In this document: piece after piece, positions 51,337-64,000 of the stretch
How positions within the stretch are numbered: the first letter of the stretch is position 1
How the letters are laid out: every line of letters starts with the position of its first letter
Assembly: GCF_028471945.1 (NCBI RefSeq)
Contig: NZ_CP110128.1
Location: 6,909,001-6,973,000 of the forward strand
DNA length: 64,000 nucleotides
Origin: Pseudomonas sp. WJP1
Lineage (GTDB): Bacteria; Pseudomonadota; Gammaproteobacteria; Pseudomonadales; Pseudomonadaceae
Direction: 5' to 3'
Program-made: the position numbers and the translations under genes
The notes under the pieces: model-generated
Databases searched by the model: none
Seen by the model: only the letters and a program-made list of their open reading frames with translations
Told to the model about the DNA's origin: nothing

Positions 51337-52542
51337 TCAAGCGACCTCTTCATACCAAGGGCCGAACGGATCAGGCAACGAGCACCAGCTCTCTGCCCCC
51401 AGCGCCATCTCTTCATCGCTCAACAGGCAATCGTCTAGCTCGTCGGCAAGCTGCGTGAAATCGATGTTTTGGCCGATGAACACCAGTTCCTGCCGGCAAT
51501 CCCCGCTATCAGCGTCCCAGTTCTGCAGGATGGCGGCTGTGCTTTCCGGGTCCTGCGGCCACTGGTCCTTCGGCACGAACCGCCACCAGCGCCCGGCAAA
51601 ACCATAACGCATCATCCCACCGGCCTGGGACCAGCTGCCGGCGTCGGTGTGTTTACTCGCCAACCAGAAGAAACCCTTGGAGCGCAGCAGCTTGCCATTG
51701 AGCCACGGGCCGTCGATGAAATTGAAGAAGCGCTGCGGATGGAACGGGCGACGCGCGCGGTAGGCGTAGGACGCGACGCCATATTCATCGGTTTCCGGCA
51801 CATGCTCGCCGCGCAGCTCCTGCAACCAGCCCGGCGCCTGCGCCGCTTTCTCGAAGTCGAAGCGACCGGTATCGAGGATCTTCTCTAGTGGCACTTCGCC
51901 CATGACCATCGGGATGATCTGCGCCTGAGCGTTGAGTCGCTTGAGGATTGCCGTCAGCTCATCGCGTTCGCGGCTGCTGATCAAGTCGATCTTGCTGATC
52001 AGGATGACGTCGGCGAATTCGATCTGCTCGATCAACAGATCGGTGATCGCCCGCTCATCCCCCTCCCCCAGCGTTTCGCCACGGGAAGCCAGGGTTTCGG
52101 CAGCCTGGAAGTCGAGCAGGAAATTCATGCCATCGACCACGGTGACCATGGTGTCGAGCCGGGCGATGTCGGTGAGGCTCTGGCCGTTTTCATCGCGAAA
52201 GGTAAATGTCTCCGCCACTGGCAGTGGCTCTGAAATGCCGGTTGATTCGATCAACAGGTAATCAAAACGACCCTCCCGGGCGAGCGAGCTAACCTCCTTC
52301 AACAAGTCTTCACGCAACGTGCAGCAGATGCAGCCATTGCTCATTTCCACGAGTTTCTCTTGCGCACGATTGAGGCTGACATCGCGCTGGACCTCGCTGC
52401 CGTCGATGTTGATTTCACTCATGTCATTGACGATAACAGCAACGCGCAAGCCATTTCTATTACGTAGTATGTAATTAAGAAGTGTACTTTTTCCGGCCCC
52501 AAGAAAGCCCGAAAGCACGGTTACGGGAAGGCGATTTGACAT
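51337..52542 (-). CDS. zigA: Zinc-starvation COG0523 GTPase (ZigA-like metallochaperone)
   Basis: A 401-residue G3E GTPase. Walker A is [10 protein letters not shown], the metal motif is [10 protein letters not shown], the switch is IESTGISEP, and the NKxD equivalent is ISKIDL. A CobW C-terminal domain ends in an acidic tail ([17 protein letters not shown]). The length and Cys motif match the Zur-regulated COG0523 proteins thought to deliver scarce zinc. GAGGAG lies 7 bases before the start at 52542. The perfect Zur-type palindrome at 52588-52606 lies 46 bases upstream and also faces folE2. Confidence 0.88.
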
Positions 52543-52587
52543 CAGAAGCTCCTCACAGGCCATTCATCAAAATTCTATCGTTGCGCG

Positions 52588-52606
52588 AATGTTATCATAT
52601 AACATT
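52588..52606. promoter_or_regulatory. Zur-type operator between zigA-like gene and folE2
   Basis: AATGTTATCATATAACATT is a perfect 8-bp palindrome around a 3-base centre, matching the ATGTTAT...ATAACAT core of zinc-uptake-regulator boxes. It is placed between divergent genes that are both known Zur targets in pseudomonads. Confidence 0.85.
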
Positions 52607-52635
52607 ACAAGCACGCCTCCACGATGGATTTCCTC

Positions 52636-53532
52636 ATGAACGCACTGACTCTTCCGGACATCGCCACGCAGGCCTCACGCCAAGCCCTGCCACTGGAGTG
52701 GGTGGGCATGTGTGGCATTGCTCTTCCTGTTTTGCTCGACGGCAAAAAATCGCCTGCGACGGCCGATGCCGGCGTGAGTCTCGATAACGGCGAGGCACGC
52801 GGTATTCATATGTCACGGTTGTACCTGGCGCTGGAAACGCTCGAGCAAGAGCCGCTCACACCCAAGCAGCTGCGACGGGTTTTACACAATTTCCTGAGCA
52901 GTCACGACGGGCTATCAAACAACGCCTACCTGACCATTCACACTGATCTGCTGCTGAAAAGACCGGCTCTGCTCAGTCCTTTGGCCGGCTGGAAAAGCTA
53001 TCCCGTCAGCATCGAAGCCCGTTTGAAAAACCAGATGTTCCACGTGGAACTTAAAATCGCGCTGCCTTATTCCTCAACCTGTCCTTGTTCAGCAGCGCTT
53101 TCCCGTCAATTGATTCAACAGCAATTCGTCGATGATTTTGCCAACCGGACGTTGCATCACACCGAGGTGCTGGCTTGGCTCGGCTCCCCTGAAGGCATCG
53201 TCGCAACGCCCCACAGTCAACGCAGCACGGCGCAATTGAGTCTGCGTTTGCACGAGTGTGTGGATGAGTTGCCACTGATCGCCGTGATCAACGATGCCGA
53301 GGCTGCGCTCGGCACAGCCGTGCAGACCGCCGTCAAGCGTGCTGATGAACAGGCGTTCGCCTTGGCCAATGGACAGAACCTGATGTTTTGCGAAGACGCC
53401 GCTCGACGCCTGAACGTGGCCCTGAAACGCTCACCCGGCATCAGCGGCTTTCAGATACGCGTCATCCACGCCGAAAGCCTGCATGCCCACGATGCCGTTG
53501 CCGAAAGTCGCTGGAACTGGGAGGCCACCTAA
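52636..53532 (+). CDS. folE2: GTP cyclohydrolase FolE2 (type IB)
   Basis: The zinc-independent replacement for FolE that makes dihydroneopterin triphosphate for folate and other pterins. The 298-residue product has the family signatures: LPLEWVGMCGIALPV, RGIHMSRLYLALE, the catalytic Cys in YSSTCPCSAALSRQL, and NGQNLMFCEDAARRLN. An alternative start at 52624 cannot be excluded. Its divergence from the zigA-like gene over a perfect Zur box indicates induction by zinc starvation. The stop codon TAA overlaps an ATG (TAATG) of a 41-codon frame of doubtful meaning. Confidence 0.92.
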   Translation: MNALTLPDIATQASRQALPLEWVGMCGIALPVLLDGKKSPATADAGVSLDNGEARGIHMSRLYLALETLEQEPLTPKQLRRVLHNFLSSHDGLSNNAYLTIHTDLLLKRPALLSPLAGWKSYPVSIEARLKNQMFHVELKIALPYSSTCPCSAALSRQLIQQQFVDDFANRTLHHTEVLAWLGSPEGIVATPHSQRSTAQLSLRLHECVDELPLIAVINDAEAALGTAVQTAVKRADEQAFALANGQNLMFCEDAARRLNVALKRSPGISGFQIRVIHAESLHAHDAVAESRWNWEAT

Positions 53533-53727: not shown

Positions 53728-54618
53728 ATGATCCAGATCACTCTGCCCGATGGTTCATTGCGTGAATACGATCAACCGCTGACCGTGCATGAAGTTGCCG
53801 CGAGTATTGGCCCCGGGCTGGCCAACGCTGCGGTAGCGGGTCGGGTGGACGGTCTGTTGGTGGACTGTGAGTTTGTGATCCGGGCCAATGCCAGGGTCAG
53901 CATCGTTACGCCCCAGGAACCCGACGGCCTGGAGATTCTCCGGCGCTCCTGTTCGCTGGTGCTGGCGATGGCGGTCAAGCAATTGTATTCCCATACCCAA
54001 TTGCGAACCGGCTCGGCGCTGGGTGACGGATTCTATTGCGAGTTCGCTGTCGAGCGCCCAATCAGGGCCGCTGATTTGCCGCTGATCGAAGCGCGCATGC
54101 ACTCATTGGCGGCGGCCAACCATTCGATTCGCCGCAGTCGCAGTCACTCCCCGTCTTGCGCCGATCTGTCGCTGTATCGCCTCGGGGACACCGACTATTT
54201 GACGAGCGGCCCGCATGTCCCCACCACCAGGGTCTTGCAGGCGTTTGCCCTCGATCACATCAACGGGACCTTGCAGCAACGCATCTATGGCACCTGCTGG
54301 TCCAGCCACCTGGAGCTGCAGCATTGGCGCCTGCCGGCCCATGTGGTGGTCGTCAGCATGGATGACAGGCAGGCGAGCTACGCCCACGCGGTCACCGAAC
54401 GCCTGCGCCGCAGTGGCGTACGCGCCCTGGCGGACCTGCGCAACGAAAAAGTTCGCCACAAGATTCGGCATCACAGCCAGACGGTGCCGTACCTGGTGGT
54501 GGTCGGCGAACAGGAAAAGGCTGGCGGGTTTGTCAGCGTGCGCAATCGCAACGGGGAGGATTTTGGCAGGATGAAGGTTGAGGCGGTGTGTGAGTGGTTG
54601 GGTCAGTCGGGGATTTGA
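53728..54618 (+). CDS. Threonyl-tRNA synthetase-like protein lacking the catalytic core
   Basis: An intact 296-residue protein composed of three pieces of ThrRS joined without the aminoacylation domain. The TGS domain (residues 1-60, ITLPDGSLREYDQPLTVHEVA) is followed by the editing domain (about residues 70-195, MAVKQLYSHTQLRTGSALGDGFY, ADLSLYRLGDTDYLTSGPHVPTTRVLQAFAL, QQRIYGTCW). It ends with the anticodon-binding domain (about residues 208-294, LPAHVVVVSMDDRQASYAHAVTERL, ADLRNEKVRHKIRHHSQTVPYLVVVGEQE). Comparison with ThrRS from memory suggests that the editing-site His pair and Cys are replaced (Ser, Met, Thr), while GPH is kept. The absent core carries the zinc site of full-length ThrRS. 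No charging activity is expected; a regulatory or editing-related role in zinc limitation is inference. Confidence 0.85.
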   Translation: MIQITLPDGSLREYDQPLTVHEVAASIGPGLANAAVAGRVDGLLVDCEFVIRANARVSIVTPQEPDGLEILRRSCSLVLAMAVKQLYSHTQLRTGSALGDGFYCEFAVERPIRAADLPLIEARMHSLAAANHSIRRSRSHSPSCADLSLYRLGDTDYLTSGPHVPTTRVLQAFALDHINGTLQQRIYGTCWSSHLELQHWRLPAHVVVVSMDDRQASYAHAVTERLRRSGVRALADLRNEKVRHKIRHHSQTVPYLVVVGEQEKAGGFVSVRNRNGEDFGRMKVEAVCEWLGQSGI

Positions 54619-58128: not shown

Positions 58129-60042
58129 TTAGAACTGCTCTTCCTTGAGCTTGAACAGTGGTTCCTGAAAGCGCAGCAAACGCCCGGCATTACCCAATAC
58201 CAACAACGTACTGAGGTTGTGCAGCAACGCGGCGATCATCGCCCCTGCTGCCCCGAGCCAACCAAACGCCGCGAAAGCAACGATCGCCAAGGTCCAGCCC
58301 AAACCGATGATCACGTTCACTTGCAAGGTCTGACGGCACTGTCGACTCAAGCGCACGCAGGTACCGAGGCGCCGCAGGTCGCTACCGATCAGCACGATAT
58401 CCGCTGATGCCAGCGCGATGTCCGCCCCGCCTGCGCCCATCGCCACACCAACAACACCAGCCTTGAGCGCCAGGGAATCGTTGATGCCATCACCCACCAC
58501 CATAGGACGAAAACCGTTACCGATTTCTTTCAACACGCGATTCAATTTGTCCTCGGGCAAGGCCTGCGCTTCGACCTCACTGATGCCTACATCCCGCGCG
58601 AGTGTGTGAGCGACGCTGTGCCGATCGCCGGTGAGCAAAAGCTGCCGGCCCAATCCAAGGTCCTTCAGTTCGCTCAAGGCAAACCTGGCTTCCGGTTTGA
58701 CGCTGTCGGCCAACAACAGCCAAGCGAGGAACTCGCCGTTGAGCGCCAGCCCGGCAATCGGGCCGTCGTGGTCGGGAACATCTGAGGTCGCTATGCCCAA
58801 TTGGGCGAACAACTCCGGGCGCCCCAGCGCGGCCTCGCCCTGCTCCGTCATGGCCACCACGCCCAAACCCTGCCGCTCGCGAATGTCCGACAGCAACAGA
58901 AAATGCTCTTGTGCGACCAGCCCCGCCAGCGCCCGGCTGACCGGGTGACTGCTGGCGGACCCGAGACTGGCGGCGAGCTTCAAGACGGGGTTGCGATCCT
59001 CCAGCGGGCTCTCGATGGATTGCAGGCGCAAGGTACCGAAGGTCAGGGTTCCGGTCTTGTCGACCACCAGCGATGTGAGGTCTGCCAGCTCCTCGAGAAA
59101 CGCCGAGCTGCGAATCAGAATGCCGTGCCGCGCGGCTACCGCTACCCCGGCAATCGCCGTCGCGGGCGCCGACAACACCAACGCACAAGGACAGGCAGCC
59201 ACCAGCACCGCGAGCATGGCCTGGGCATCGTTGGTGATGAACCAGGTGACTGCGGCCAGCAGCAATACCAGCACCAGGTAGCTCCCGGCGTAACGCTCCA
59301 GCAACCGGGTGATCGGCGGTTTGGAACGCTCGGCGTTTTGCATCAGCGCGATCACTTTGCCGAGGGTCGATTCGTCGCCGGTCCGAGTCACTTCAATGCG
59401 CAGCAGGCCATCGAGATTGATCGCGCCACCGAACACCGCCATGCCGACGCCCGCTTCCATCGGCACCGACTCGCCGGTAATGGAGGCGGTGTCCAGACTC
59501 GCTTGGCCGGACATCACCCGACCATCCGCCGGCACCCGATCACCGGCACGGACTTCCACCAGATCGCCAGCCCTGAGCGTACCGTTGTCGACCTCGACGA
59601 TGGAGCCGTCGGCCTGCACCTTGCGCGCGTGACTGCGGGTGAGTTTGCCTAAAGCATGAATGGCTTCTTGCGAACCGATCACGCTGCGCTCTTCCAGCAC
59701 ATGGCCGAAGATCATGATGATCGGCAGCAATGCCGCCGTCAGCAAATCGCCTGTCGCCCACGCACCGAGCATGGCCAGGGCGATCAGTTGATCGGTGATG
59801 CCATGCAGGCTTGGATACCGCAGGCTGTACCAGGCCGAACGCATCACTGGTACGGCCACCAGCACGGAAGCAACACCCAGTAGCAATTGGCTGACCCCGG
59901 TCTGTTCCGGCGACAACCAGCGCCATACGAGGCCCAGCGCGAGCAAGCCAAGTGCGAGCATGGCCAGGGTCAGTTGACGGGCAGCGCTGCGTTGTTCCGC
60001 CGAGGACAACATGCTCGGTGCAGCGGTGGTTTGAGCGGTCAT
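58129..60042 (-). CDS. P1B-type heavy-metal ATPase without N-terminal metal-binding domain
   Basis: A 637-residue P-type ATPase for transition metals. Two N-terminal membrane helix pairs precede the actuator domain with TGES (residues 189-192). The membrane metal-site motif CPC is at residues 284-286, followed by the phosphorylation motif DKTGT (Asp328), the nucleotide-domain motif HP (SASSHPVSR) and GDGIND. No CxxC or HMA domain precedes the first helix. The last helix shows HNLST in place of the HxxGST or Asp-containing patterns of Cu or Zn subclasses, so the metal is uncertain. It overlaps the upstream SPFH gene by ATGA and ends the four-gene operon. Confidence 0.88.
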   Translation of the reverse strand: MTAQTTAAPSMLSSAEQRSAARQLTLAMLALGLLALGLVWRWLSPEQTGVSQLLLGVASVLVAVPVMRSAWYSLRYPSLHGITDQLIALAMLGAWATGDLLTAALLPIIMIFGHVLEERSVIGSQEAIHALGKLTRSHARKVQADGSIVEVDNGTLRAGDLVEVRAGDRVPADGRVMSGQASLDTASITGESVPMEAGVGMAVFGGAINLDGLLRIEVTRTGDESTLGKVIALMQNAERSKPPITRLLERYAGSYLVLVLLLAAVTWFITNDAQAMLAVLVAACPCALVLSAPATAIAGVAVAARHGILIRSSAFLEELADLTSLVVDKTGTLTFGTLRLQSIESPLEDRNPVLKLAASLGSASSHPVSRALAGLVAQEHFLLLSDIRERQGLGVVAMTEQGEAALGRPELFAQLGIATSDVPDHDGPIAGLALNGEFLAWLLLADSVKPEARFALSELKDLGLGRQLLLTGDRHSVAHTLARDVGISEVEAQALPEDKLNRVLKEIGNGFRPMVVGDGINDSLALKAGVVGVAMGAGGADIALASADIVLIGSDLRRLGTCVRLSRQCRQTLQVNVIIGLGWTLAIVAFAAFGWLGAAGAMIAALLHNLSTLLVLGNAGRLLRFQEPLFKLKEEQF

Positions 60043-61097
60043 TGTGCAGCTCCCTGAATGATCAGGCGGGAATCGTCTTTCGGATCAACCGTGGTGACTG
60101 AGCCGGCCTGACCCAGAATTTTCGGCATCCGCTCGCGGTAGATCCGCAGCAACATTTGCGGGTCCGCGGCTTGTTGCTGGGCGTTGGCCAGGCTCATTAC
60201 CGTGGCGGTATCAGCCGACGCTTTCGCCAGCCGTTCACTCGATTGAGCATGGGCGACTTGCAGCGTGCGGTCGGCTTGTTCATTGGCGGTCTGGGTCAGC
60301 TTCTCGGCCTCGGTGCGCGCGTTGGCCACGGCCTTGTCGGCTTGCTGGCTGGCGGTCAGTACGGCGTTGAACGCATTGATCGCCGGCGCCGGCAGACTCG
60401 ACTGCACGTCAACCCGAGCCACTTCGATCCCCAGCCCCTGCCCCGTCGCGGCCAATTGCGCCAAGCGTTGGTTGATACCTTGCACCAGATCGCCGCGCAG
60501 ACGCTCGCGCCTTTCTGCTGCCTGATTATCCGCGCCGATCAACTCCGGACGTGCGACCAGAATAGTGTCCAGATCTCGTGCAGCCGTGAGTGCCAAGGCG
60601 CTGCGGGTCACCAGACGATCCAGGGCTGGCAACACATGCTCGCCTTGAAGTACGAAGGCATACGGCTCAGTGACCTTGTAGAAAACCCGCACATCCAGTT
60701 GCACTACACCGGCATCCCCCGTCAGCAAATAACCGGAGCCTGCCAGTGCGTCACTGATCGGCGTCGCAAAACTGGCCGCGCGATCGGCCTGCAATGCGGC
60801 ATCCGTGCGCAACAGGTTTTCCACTCGACGCTCGATTACCCGGTCCGCCGCTGGCAGCAAAATCACCTGCTCAAACGGTCGCGGCCAGGCCAACAGCAAA
60901 CCGGCATTCTGGATGCGATCCAGCGCGCCGAAGTGCAAAACAACCGCGCGATTTTGCGGATCAATCTGCCGCACATTGGAGAACGCCCATGCCAAAGCGG
61001 CCAACACCGTCACTGCATATAGGGCGAGAAACGCCAAGCGTCCGGCCTGAATCCACGGGCTGCTCAACTCATGTGTTCCACGTGGAACCAAATTCAT
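60039..61097 (-). CDS. SPFH/HflK-like membrane protein (operon member 3)
   Basis: A 352-residue protein with one N-terminal membrane helix (LAFLALYAVTVLAALAWAFSNV, about residues 17-38). A SPFH/Band 7 domain follows (about residues 45-220, RAVVLHFGALDRIQNAGLLLAWPRPFEQV). The C-terminal half is a long coiled coil rich in Ala and Gln (ASQQADKAVANARTEAEKLTQTANEQADRTLQVAHAQ), typical of HflK/HflC/stomatin oligomers. It is a paralogue of the other two SPFH genes of this operon, not the canonical hflK next to hflX. It overlaps its neighbours on both sides by 4 bases, so tight translational coupling is expected. Confidence 0.85.
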   Translation of the reverse strand: MNLVPRGTHELSSPWIQAGRLAFLALYAVTVLAALAWAFSNVRQIDPQNRAVVLHFGALDRIQNAGLLLAWPRPFEQVILLPAADRVIERRVENLLRTDAALQADRAASFATPISDALAGSGYLLTGDAGVVQLDVRVFYKVTEPYAFVLQGEHVLPALDRLVTRSALALTAARDLDTILVARPELIGADNQAAERRERLRGDLVQGINQRLAQLAATGQGLGIEVARVDVQSSLPAPAINAFNAVLTASQQADKAVANARTEAEKLTQTANEQADRTLQVAHAQSSERLAKASADTATVMSLANAQQQAADPQMLLRIYRERMPKILGQAGSVTTVDPKDDSRLIIQGAAQ

Positions 61098-62134
61098 GGC
61101 TGCGATCCGGGTTTGCTATCGAGCGTCGGCGGACCGTCAACCAACACCCGGAAAGGCGCGGCATCGGTACGCAGGATCAGTTTGGTGCCTGGGGTGATCA
61201 CCGTGCCCAAGGTGTCAAGCGAGCGCAGCAGGTTGTAAAGCTGCGGTGAGCCGGCGTAGGCACGCGCATAAATCTGCGCGGCTTCAACCCGGGATTGCGC
61301 CTCGATGTCAGCCGCTTTCACCGTGGCATCGGCCTGGACGATTCGCGCATCACGTTCCGCCGCGGAGCGAATTTGCGCCGCTTCGCGCTTACCGATGGCG
61401 GTGCGTTCGGTCGCGATGGTTTCACGCTCGGCGCGCATGCGATCGACCGTCGCAGTGAGCGTGACCGATGGCAAGGTCAGGCGCTCGATGCCGACTTGCA
61501 GCACTCGCACACCATAGGTGGTCAGCAACTGCTGATCGATTTGCTTGCGCAGCTGCGCTTCGAAATCGGCGATGTGCACTTGATTGGCGTCGGTGTTCAC
61601 CAGGTTAGCCAGATCGAAACTACTGGCCGTGGTTTCCAGGGCGGAGCCGACGAAGGTGCGGATCTGCCGAGCCGCTTCGTCCGGCTGGTTTTGCACTGCG
61701 CGCATAAAGCGCTGCACGTTGTCCGCATCACCCTGCACCTGCCAGGCAACGTAAGCCTGAACGATGATGCGCAAGCCGTCCCGCGTGCCCACATCCTGCA
61801 AACCGCTGGACGTGGTGCGCAGTCGCAGATCCACCGGGATCGCCGCTTCGAAGGGTGCCGGCCAGCGCCAGCCAAGGCCCGGCTCCAGCAACACTCGCGA
61901 TGGGTTGCCAAAACGAGTGATGACCGTGGCTTCGCCCGAACGCACTTGCACCAGGCTCGCAGCCGCCACGGCAAAGGCCACCAACAACGCCGCCCAGGCC
62001 ATGCGTCGCCAAGGGAATGGACCGGCTTCCTGCGGATCACCGTGGTGGTGATGGTGATGACCGTGGTGATGTCCGCCGTGGCCGTGATCGTGGCCACTGT
62101 GGTCGGCGTGATCGTGGGTATGTGGTTGGCTCAA
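61094..62134 (-). CDS. SPFH/HflC-like protein with His-rich N-terminus (operon member 2)
   Basis: A 346-residue protein. The first 33 residues contain 16 histidines (HTHDHADHSGHDHGH continuing into GGHHHG and a run of six His). This looks like a cytoplasmic metal-binding tail of the kind found in metallochaperones and transporters. Then come one membrane helix (MAWAALLVAFAVAAASLVQV, about residues 45-64) and a SPFH domain (SGEATVITRFGNPSRVLLEPGLGWRWPAPFE). A helical region (AAQIRSAAERDARIVQADATVKAADIEAQSRVEAAQIYARAY), as in HflC/stomatin, follows. Starts and stops overlap neighbours (ATGA). Combination with a P1B ATPase in one operon supports a metal-related role. Confidence 0.85.
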   Translation of the reverse strand: MSQPHTHDHADHSGHDHGHGGHHHGHHHHHHGDPQEAGPFPWRRMAWAALLVAFAVAAASLVQVRSGEATVITRFGNPSRVLLEPGLGWRWPAPFEAAIPVDLRLRTTSSGLQDVGTRDGLRIIVQAYVAWQVQGDADNVQRFMRAVQNQPDEAARQIRTFVGSALETTASSFDLANLVNTDANQVHIADFEAQLRKQIDQQLLTTYGVRVLQVGIERLTLPSVTLTATVDRMRAERETIATERTAIGKREAAQIRSAAERDARIVQADATVKAADIEAQSRVEAAQIYARAYAGSPQLYNLLRSLDTLGTVITPGTKLILRTDAAPFRVLVDGPPTLDSKPGSQP

Positions 62135-64000
62135 TTGGCGGCTCCTGGCTGAGCAGTTTTACGCGACGACGCAGGGTCAGCCGGCAACGTGAATGTACGC
62201 AGATCAATGGTCGGTGCATTGCTGCTGCCGCCCAGACGATGATCGAGGACCAGTAACCTGGCATTGGCCAGGCCCTGGGAAAGTTGGCCGAGATATTGCT
62301 CCAGCACGAAGGCCTGGCCGGCACTGGCGTAAGCCTTTTTCTCGGCGCTGAATTTCAGCTCGCCCGCCTTGGCCGTCGCGTTGATTTCATGGGCATTCGC
62401 CGTTGCCTGATCCCGGGCAATGCTCGCCTGCAACTGCGCCTGGTTGGTGGCTTCGGCGGCGGCTCCGCGTTCGCGGGCGATCAACGCCTGAGCGCCGATC
62501 TGTGCGGCTTGCACCCCGTGATAAGCATTGGCCGCCCCTGCCGGTGGGTGAATCGCTTCGACCACCGTGGCGAGAATTTCCACGCCACTGTTTAGTTTCT
62601 GCAGGTCGACCTGCACGGCCCGGCCGATTTCCTCGGCGAGCCCTACCCGGTCCTCACCGAGCAAACCGTCCAGGGTTCGTGAGGCGAAGTCGTGAACCAG
62701 AATGCGGCTGGCGGTGCTGCGAATCAGCGTTGGCACATCCGCGCTGTTGTAGGTTGCTGCCAATGCCGCCTGATCGCTCAAACCGATGCGATAGACAAAA
62801 CGGACGTCCATGTTGACGATCTGAAAGCTCTGCTTGTCCGCACGGCTGCTGGCAATCACCTGGGATTTGTCATTCACATGGCTGGCGTCCCACAACCGGT
62901 TGGCGGTCATCGGTGCCGGGCCTTCGGCGGGGTCTGCCTGCACGGGTGCCGACGTTTCGCCGACACTGGTGGCCAATTCGTGAACCACGCCATTTTCGAC
63001 ACTCAGCACCCGGCCCAACGGCCACGGTAAACCTGCATGCAGACCCGGACCGAACACCGTCACCGGTTTGCCGAAACGCTCGTAGATCCCCCGCCCTTGC
63101 AGCGGAATTTCGTGAACACCGCTGAGTGACCATCCGACGAGGGCAACAACGAACAGCACCGGCAACAATGCCCGGCGCATGTAAGTGAAGGCCCAGATCT
63201 GCCTCAGGTCGATGCCAAAGCGGTTGTGCAATTCGTGCTGCAACGCCTGCAATGGTTGCGGTGGCCAGCGCAGCATATCGGCGACAAAACTGCGCGCCAG
63301 CAGCGCAGGTTCAAGTTGTTCGCGACGTGGGCTGAACAATGACAGTACGGCACGAAGTAGCAATTCGAAGGCCACGAACCCCGGCAGCAGGCCGATCAGT
63401 ACGGCCAGACGCACCGGCCAAACCGAAGTTTCATTGCCGAACAGCAGGCATAACGCTCCAAGTATCAGGCTGATGATTGCAACGCGAGTCAGCTGCGCCA
63501 AGGCTTGCGCCTCGGGCCATTGAGCGCTGTTTTCCTGGGCAAGCTGACGTTCCAGAACCAGCAATCCAAAGGCCAGCAATAACCCCAGGGCCGCGCCGAT
63601 AGTGGCCGACATTCCCAGCGCTGCGGGTGGCAAAGCAAGGTTCCAGGCCTGATTGACGCATAACAACGCCAGCAGCGCCCAACCACCCAGCCACAGCGTT
63701 GGCGCACCGATTTGCCTGAGTAGCTTCAGCCAGCGCTGGCTGATTCGCTCCAGTAGCCGTTCGTACCAGCCCACCGGTGCTTCAGCTTCTTCAGAGTCGA
63801 CCACTGGCGCCAAGGGATTCATCGCCCGCGCCCGCCATTTCGTCACCCACCAGGCCGATTGCAAGCCAGCGACCAACACCAGCAACGCAGCGCTCTGATT
63901 GAATAACAGAGGAGGCCAAAGGGATTGCGGCGCAAACAGCCCGACAAAAAACCCCAGCACCAAGCCCATTGCCGCGAGCGCGCCGAGACCAATGGCGAAC
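62131..64000 (-). CDS. Polytopic SPFH-domain membrane protein (5' end outside window)
   Basis: The frame is open to the end of the window, so the N-terminus is missing; an ATG at 63969 sits in the middle of a hydrophobic stretch that continues upstream. The visible part (over 620 residues) begins with about six or seven membrane helices, for example LALAAMGLVLGFFVGLF-like, SAALLVLVAGLQSAWWV, LWLGGWALLALLCV and LLPVLFVVALVGWSL. A SPFH/HflK-type domain follows (QGRGIYERFGKPVTVFGPGLHAGLPWPLG; FVYRIGLSDQAALAATYNSADVPTLIRSTASR) with a C-terminal helical tail. A polytopic N-terminus is unusual for this family. It is the first visible gene of the operon. Confidence 0.82.
   Translation of the reverse strand, partial: FAIGLGALAAMGLVLGFFVGLFAPQSLWPPLLFNQSAALLVLVAGLQSAWWVTKWRARAMNPLAPVVDSEEAEAPVGWYERLLERISQRWLKLLRQIGAPTLWLGGWALLALLCVNQAWNLALPPAALGMSATIGAALGLLLAFGLLVLERQLAQENSAQWPEAQALAQLTRVAIISLILGALCLLFGNETSVWPVRLAVLIGLLPGFVAFELLLRAVLSLFSPRREQLEPALLARSFVADMLRWPPQPLQALQHELHNRFGIDLRQIWAFTYMRRALLPVLFVVALVGWSLSGVHEIPLQGRGIYERFGKPVTVFGPGLHAGLPWPLGRVLSVENGVVHELATSVGETSAPVQADPAEGPAPMTANRLWDASHVNDKSQVIASSRADKQSFQIVNMDVRFVYRIGLSDQAALAATYNSADVPTLIRSTASRILVHDFASRTLDGLLGEDRVGLAEEIGRAVQVDLQKLNSGVEILATVVEAIHPPAGAANAYHGVQAAQIGAQALIARERGAAAEATNQAQLQASIARDQATANAHEINATAKAGELKFSAEKKAYASAGQAFVLEQYLGQLSQGLANARLLVLDHRLGGSSNAPTIDLRTFTLPADPASSRKTAQPGAAN

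Follow-up and report, generated by a model that had tools for sequence, protein, structure and literature searches.

The closest described relative of the locus analysed here is the hmtA locus of Pseudomonas aeruginosa. The locus itself, a cluster of three genes for SPFH membrane proteins (SPFH-A, SPFH-B and SPFH-C) and one for a P1B-type metal ATPase, lies at the end of a 64,000-nucleotide stretch of the Pseudomonas sp. WJP1 genome (NZ_CP110128.1, positions 6,909,001 to 6,973,000), hereafter the window. Its four genes travel together as a single inherited unit, and their products probably work together in bringing zinc into the cell. In strain PAO1, PA2439 (HflK family), PA2438 (HflC), PA2437 (HflC family) and PA2436 stand beside PA2435, which encodes HmtA (PMC4542158, PMC8531726, PMC11761036). 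HmtA is regarded as an importer because its overexpression leads to zinc and copper hypersensitivity and accumulation, a finding for which confirmation has been called for (review PMC10393844, citing Lewinson 2009). In a znuA mutant, the listed genes of PA2434-2439 (PA2436 is not on the list) were up 5.6-14.4-fold, and a weak Zur site (E 0.11) was assigned to the cluster (PMC4542158). Zur fully shifted the PA2439 promoter only with zinc in an electrophoretic mobility shift assay, and the hmtA mRNA was described as low and without zinc repression (PMC8531726); a review excludes hmtA from Zur binding, contrary to this assay (PMC10393844). According to a preprint, zinc depletion raised HmtA (log2 2.9), PA2438 (3.6-4.9) and PA2439 (2.7-3.8), with p values of 0.01-0.18, and the changes it reports for PA2437 include no significant rise (PMC11761036).

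PA2437-2439 correspond to PA14_33110/33080/33070 (PMC9431628). As PaFlo5-7 (PA14_33070/33080/33110), the three genes have been deleted jointly, which lowered biofilm by ~20% and attenuated the mutant somewhat in larvae; of ten further Pseudomonas species, two were found to have the trio (PMC13086221). A term search of the main text of that paper returned neither 'ATPase' nor 'P-type', and 'zinc' once, about FtsH. The position of HmtA near HflK/HflC-family genes has been noted (PMC4542158, PMC9431628), and no paper treating the ATPase and the SPFH proteins as one device was found in the open-access literature searched. The original prediction, made from the DNA letters alone, held that no such system had been described. 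This claim falls, as the locus is that of hmtA, its Zur control is published and its SPFH trio has been deleted. The locus is already known by its parts; what is new is that SPFH proteins constantly accompany a pump of the HmtA type.

The ATPase of the window is 81% identical to two P. aeruginosa proteins (503/619 residues for P0156, 502/620 for P0143), records that do not carry the name HmtA and are linked to it through the locus described in the papers. Like hmtA, its gene lies in an operon with HflK/HflC-family genes, and the likeness extends to the gene order (HflK family, HflC, HflC family, ATPase) and to Zur control, here suggested by a palindrome (see below). The two loci differ in PA2436, an extra gene between the last SPFH gene and hmtA, where the window has a 4-base overlap. 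Another Pseudomonadaceae genome has a gene at the PA2436 position, after SPFH-C and ahead of the ATPase gene (L069:8142-8594, plus strand), whose 150-amino-acid product has no Pfam match.

The four-gene anatomy is real and firmer than the earlier reader could know (Table 1). The genes run in the order SPFH-A, SPFH-B, SPFH-C, ATPase, the window stopping inside SPFH-A, and the open reading frame coordinates agree with the proposed four minus-strand genes joined by 4-base overlaps. Two overlaps are ATGA, as had been said of all three; that between SPFH-A and SPFH-B is TTGA because SPFH-B starts with TTG. Extending the sequence upstream, as had been advised, completes SPFH-A either at an ATG 95 bases beyond the window, with a Shine-Dalgarno-like GGAG ahead (654 amino acids), or at a GTG 122 bases beyond it (663 amino acids); the ATG is the more likely start. 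A divergent dihydrolipoyl dehydrogenase gene lies ~190-220 bp upstream. The reading as three SPFH proteins and a metal ATPase is borne out by Pfam, with Band_7 scores of 68.8, 108.9 and 66.2 bits for SPFH-A, -B and -C (gathering score 23.6) and E1-E2_ATPase and hydrolase domains in the fourth protein. The ATPase carries CPC, DKTGT, TGES and GDGIND as described, and the Pfam scan detected no metal-binding domain in it, including at its N-terminus. A count gave the expected 16 histidines within residues 1-33 of SPFH-B, and SPFH-A was rightly called polytopic, six long helices preceding the SPFH anchor helix in its structure model.

Table 1. Features of the four-gene locus and its zinc-related surroundings (window positions unless stated otherwise)
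Feature	Position	Strand	Description
SPFH-A	62131..64000, open at window edge	minus	654 amino acids once complete, probably starting at window-equivalent 64095, beyond the window edge
SPFH-A parts			modelled membrane domain of six helices, possibly CDF/ZnT-like in fold (model residues 20-258), then a seventh helix and an HflK-like SPFH part
SPFH-B	61094-62134	minus	346 amino acids, TTG start, HflC-like; His tail residues 1-33, membrane helix ~41-64
SPFH-C	60039-61097	minus	352 amino acids, HflK-like, single membrane helix
HmtA-type P1B ATPase	58129-60042	minus	637 amino acids; CPC in M4, HNLST in M6
Zur-like palindrome GTTATATCGTAAC	L007:9134-9146, window-equivalent 64133-64145, outside the window		upstream of SPFH-A
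Zur-like palindrome	52591..52603		between zigA and folE2
zigA, zinc metallochaperone GTPase	51337..52563	minus	678.2 bits vs cut-off 600; zinc-starvation neighbour
folE2, GTP cyclohydrolase FolE2	52624..53532	plus	320.1 bits vs cut-off 215; zinc-starvation neighbour

Conservation was followed in 113 loci, comprising the window, 20 diverse relatives, the 80 named loci that ranked highest among the 425 of a collection scan and all belong to Pseudomonas, four from a phylum ATPase search and eight from plasmids. All 113 have the order A-B-C-ATPase, 108 of them without qualification; one is truncated at the end of its contig, and in four a gene is split into two open reading frames. Since the loci were chosen by SPFH-A or the ATPase, this test bears on the remaining genes, and such constancy shows that the arrangement is not due to chance. 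Genome searches, in which the best 3-6 candidates per genome were scored, found SPFH-A (E <= 1e-20) and the ATPase (E <= 1e-120) each in 118 of the 199 genomes of a genus sample; the genomes were the same, as were contig and strand, and the matches were 2009-2224 bp apart. In a phylum sample of 398 genomes, both proteins occurred in an identical 11 (thresholds E <= 1e-40 for SPFH-A and E <= 1e-140 for the ATPase), five of which belong to the genus sample too. The co-occurrence of the four families that had been proposed as a check is thus borne out. An order sample of 145 genomes yielded a full-length SPFH-A match in three and a partial match, mostly to the SPFH region, in 57 more. SPFH-A relatives were also found on 10 plasmid records (seven from Rhizobium, the others from Klebsiella aerogenes, Paraburkholderia and Burkholderia ubonensis), eight of which were examined; two are typed as conjugative plasmids. 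The loci in which one of the four genes appears as two open reading frames are L096, L105, L162 and L181.

Beyond the four genes, CfaB and Cls lie nearby in 80/80 collection-scan loci, which points to one chromosomal site among close relatives; of the remaining 33 loci, window included, eight share at least one of seven neighbours, ZigA being found in one (L084). No recurring fifth partner was seen among 23 scanned flanking proteins (part of those present), nor when the window's own neighbours were tested across the loci. In Paraburkholderia sprentiae, the four-gene cluster is preceded at ~3.5 kb by the gene of a GTP-binding protein and a cluster of zinc ABC transporter genes; a PCu(A)C gene lies in the interval.

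The unit is further marked by histidine tails. They were taken from the longest open reading frame, within the 50 residues or fewer that precede a fixed anchor, and a few may therefore hold residues upstream of the true start. At least five histidines precede the membrane helix of SPFH-B in 112/113 loci, with a median of 16, and are found at the ATPase N-terminus in 21 of 112; no SPFH-A or SPFH-C carries such a tail in the 113 loci. The sole SPFH-B without a tail, from the K. aerogenes plasmid, is paired with an ATPase bearing five histidines. After the loci were collapsed to 27 under 80% identity, the tail was present in SPFH-B in 26/27, in the ATPase in 15/26 and in either one in 27/27. The SPFH-B model has a mean predicted local distance difference test score of 58.5, too low for a fold search, and the very low confidence of its tail, as in disordered stretches, suggests that the tail is probably disordered. 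The N-terminal side of HflC before the membrane helix is cytoplasmic. As the tail of SPFH-B precedes a single membrane helix, it is by analogy probably cytoplasmic too, and if HmtA imports, it would face the exit of the pump, not its entrance. Of the original prediction that the tail supplies metal to the ATPase or controls it, supply would then be lost; a cytoplasmic tail would receive or buffer zinc.

Regulation by zinc is suggested by the Zur-box-like palindrome upstream of SPFH-A. The pattern GTTATANNRTWAC has three exact matches in the 7.0-Mb genome, which lie upstream of SPFH-A, between zigA and folE2, and 37 bp ahead of a ZrgA-family zinc uptake gene, after which comes an ABC ATPase gene. 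By family all three are zinc-starvation loci. The reversed pattern, taken as a control, gives three genome matches as well, and the number of matches alone therefore proves nothing. A site scoring at least 10 of 12 in the 300 bases upstream is found in 92/113 loci, compared to 1.1% of single-base shuffles; among the 27 collapsed loci, 13 have such a site and 22 one scoring at least 9 (shuffles 9.4%). None of the eight plasmid copies reaches a score of 10. The ZrgA-family His-rich protein and its ABC ATPase (L192:1501-2972, ~6.324 Mb; NCBIfam ZrgA score 136, cut-off 185) look like the counterpart of PA4063-PA4064.

For the SPFH trio, the described system to compare is the HflK/HflC cage around FtsH (7vhp, 7wi3, 9cz2), with which it shares one-anchor-helix SPFH proteins, HflK-like and HflC-like partners and a long coiled coil. 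Here, however, there are three proteins, one with a six-helix extra domain and one with a His tail, and the partner gene encodes a P-type ATPase. The scores also stay below the NCBIfam equivalog cut-offs (53.7 for SPFH-A and 93.8 for SPFH-C vs 159.4 for hflK; 96 for SPFH-B vs 134.4 for hflC). The same genome encodes, at 545-546 kb, a canonical HflK of 377 bits and a canonical HflC of 286.8 bits, both above the cut-offs; compared with this pair, SPFH-B is 28% identical to HflC, SPFH-C 24% to HflK and SPFH-A 21-24% to SPFH-C and HflK. In a rough tree of 12 loci, with three outgroup rows on long branches and bootstrap values that are not settled, the members of each of the subfamilies A, B and C group into a single clade irrespective of host (support 100/100, 100/99 and 97/92). 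On the strength of the separate clades and the canonical pair elsewhere, a duplicated canonical hflKC was rejected, the trio not being recent copies of it. As the genes are also conserved together, neither of the outcomes named beforehand as fatal to the idea of a system, scattered genes or simple hflKC copies, applies. Two HflK-like proteins and one HflC-like protein make a mixed ring plausible.

The membrane domain of SPFH-A may resemble CDF/ZnT transporters (YiiP, ZnT1) in its modelled fold, and it differs from them in continuing into an SPFH domain. Five of its six helices pass a hydropathy scan, the second peaking at 1.51 vs a threshold of 1.6. Membership of the CDF family by sequence was rejected, with no match to PF01545 (Cation_efflux) in 16 SPFH-A members up to E 10 and an HHalign probability of 0.2% against 18 CDF proteins (reversed control 0.1%); only a possible resemblance in fold is kept. 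Among 28 members, transmembrane helix (TM) 2 has no Asp/Glu/His/Cys column and the Asp/His metal pair of CDF proteins is absent from TM2/TM5; TM5 has just E195 (25/28, at the helix start) and C216 (19/28), a reading with no residue-level structural mapping behind it. E182 (TM4) and E244 (TM6) are invariant, and in the SPFH part histidines 353, 372, 406, 516 and 526 are conserved.

By alignment, the ATPase is an unusual P1B pump with altered membrane ligands. The solved relatives that score highest are sCoaT (7qbz) and ZntA (4umv), for which the roles of the residues, and the SPC and HEGxT motifs of P1B-4 pumps, have been described (PMC8880997). All residue numbers, D714 included, were counted on the alignment. 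With ZntA/CadA (P1B-2) the ATPase shares the P1B core and CPC, but E202/K693/D714 of ZntA are aligned to T102/T584/H608, so that the M2 Glu, M5 Lys and M6 Asp of P1B-2 are absent. With sCoaT (P1B-4) it shares the core, the lack of a classical metal-binding domain and the M6 His, but E120/E658 are aligned to T102/N609, and CPC and HNLST stand for SPC and HEGxT, His and Thr being kept and Glu becoming Asn. T102 and T584 are invariant in 112/112 orthologues, and H608, N609 and T612 in 111/112, with one gap. The loss of both exporter-path acids would fit a changed polarity of transport and is no proof of it. Among seven other P1B-family matches in the same genome, five of which were aligned, L228 has the ZntA set E/K/D, and L227 and L231 are presumably copper pumps from the appearance of their motifs. 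The P1B-like ATPase L229 (3530913-3532544) has TPC in M4 for CPC.

It is conceivable, with the chances in our view evenly balanced, that the products of the four genes form a single machine for zinc uptake under starvation, with HmtA inside an HflK/C-type SPFH ring. The proposal draws on what was found here, namely the structure of the genes and their strict co-inheritance, the rule of the His tails, the palindrome shared with other zinc loci and the family relationships, and on the Zur binding, induction by zinc depletion in P. aeruginosa and import by HmtA taken from papers; the topology, the place of HmtA and the zinc relay we infer. Zur would repress the operon, and upon zinc scarcity HmtA would be made together with SPFH-A, -B and -C. 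The HflK-like A and C and the HflC-like B would build a ring or dome in the inner membrane, on the periplasmic side, and HmtA would sit within it, replacing FtsH or beside it. The degenerate CDF/ZnT-like domain of SPFH-A, which is without the known CDF metal pairs, probably docks or gates HmtA, and the conserved periplasmic histidines of SPFH-A may collect zinc. HmtA would carry Zn(II), perhaps Cu, inward, and the disordered cytoplasmic His tails, which SPFH-B carries and in some species HmtA as well, would bind or buffer the incoming ion, or else act as a sensor that throttles the pump. A bolder form, possible but more apt to fail than to hold, has an importer that works only inside an SPFH cage built of a pseudo-CDF/SPFH fusion and two more SPFH proteins, with vectorial passage of zinc from the conserved periplasmic SPFH-A histidines through the rewired pump to a crown of cytoplasmic His tails, all encoded by a mobile four-gene cassette.

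The trio may instead serve quality control, shielding HmtA from FtsH or assembling it in a microdomain, with a zinc-loaded His tail that releases HmtA to proteolysis and stops import. HflK/C assemblies encircle FtsH and modulate membrane-protein degradation (PMC12048511), all three proteins are HflK/HflC-like, and the low-confidence, probably disordered tail is compatible with such a role; the CDF-like domain and the conserved SPFH-part histidines of SPFH-A are left unexplained, however, and we consider this unlikely. Quite improbable is that HmtA exports Zn or Cu like other P1B pumps, fed by cytoplasmic His tails. Export had been assumed in the original prediction and conflicts with the role reported for HmtA. 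In favour of export, the closest solved relatives are annotated as exporting, efflux, translocating or transporting, none as an importer, and a mainly Cu role was suggested, the hmtA mRNA being unresponsive to Zn (PMC8531726). Export is countered by the hypersensitivity and metal accumulation upon HmtA overexpression (PMC10393844), by Zur control and induction by Zn depletion (PMC11761036, PMC4542158, PMC8531726), and by the Thr and Asn that stand where ZntA and sCoaT have acidic residues along the exit path. That the trio replaces HflK/HflC on the zinc protease FtsH at low zinc, HmtA being merely co-transcribed, agrees with family scores nearest to HflK/HflC and with two papers regarding the trio as FtsH/HflB-related modulators (PMC11761036, PMC9431628), but has a slim chance against equivalog scores under the cut-offs, a canonical pair at 545-546 kb and the result that, in the 118 and 11 genomes, SPFH-A was never found apart from the ATPase.

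HmtA is a disputed importing heavy-metal P-type pump, and if its import depends on three SPFH partners, work on HmtA alone could miss the machine. For SPFH proteins, whose roles beyond FtsH are mostly unclear, the locus offers a trio whose transport partner is constant, together with a metal cue and a testable phenotype. It may also explain the nearly silent deletion of PaFlo5-7, for which the assays listed include no metal test (PMC13086221).

A further gene lies after folE2 in the window (53728-54618, plus strand). It encodes a 296-amino-acid protein resembling threonyl-tRNA synthetase, with TGS and anticodon-binding domains and no catalytic core matched, possibly a paralogue for zinc starvation that acts on tRNA or on threonyl-tRNA synthetase.

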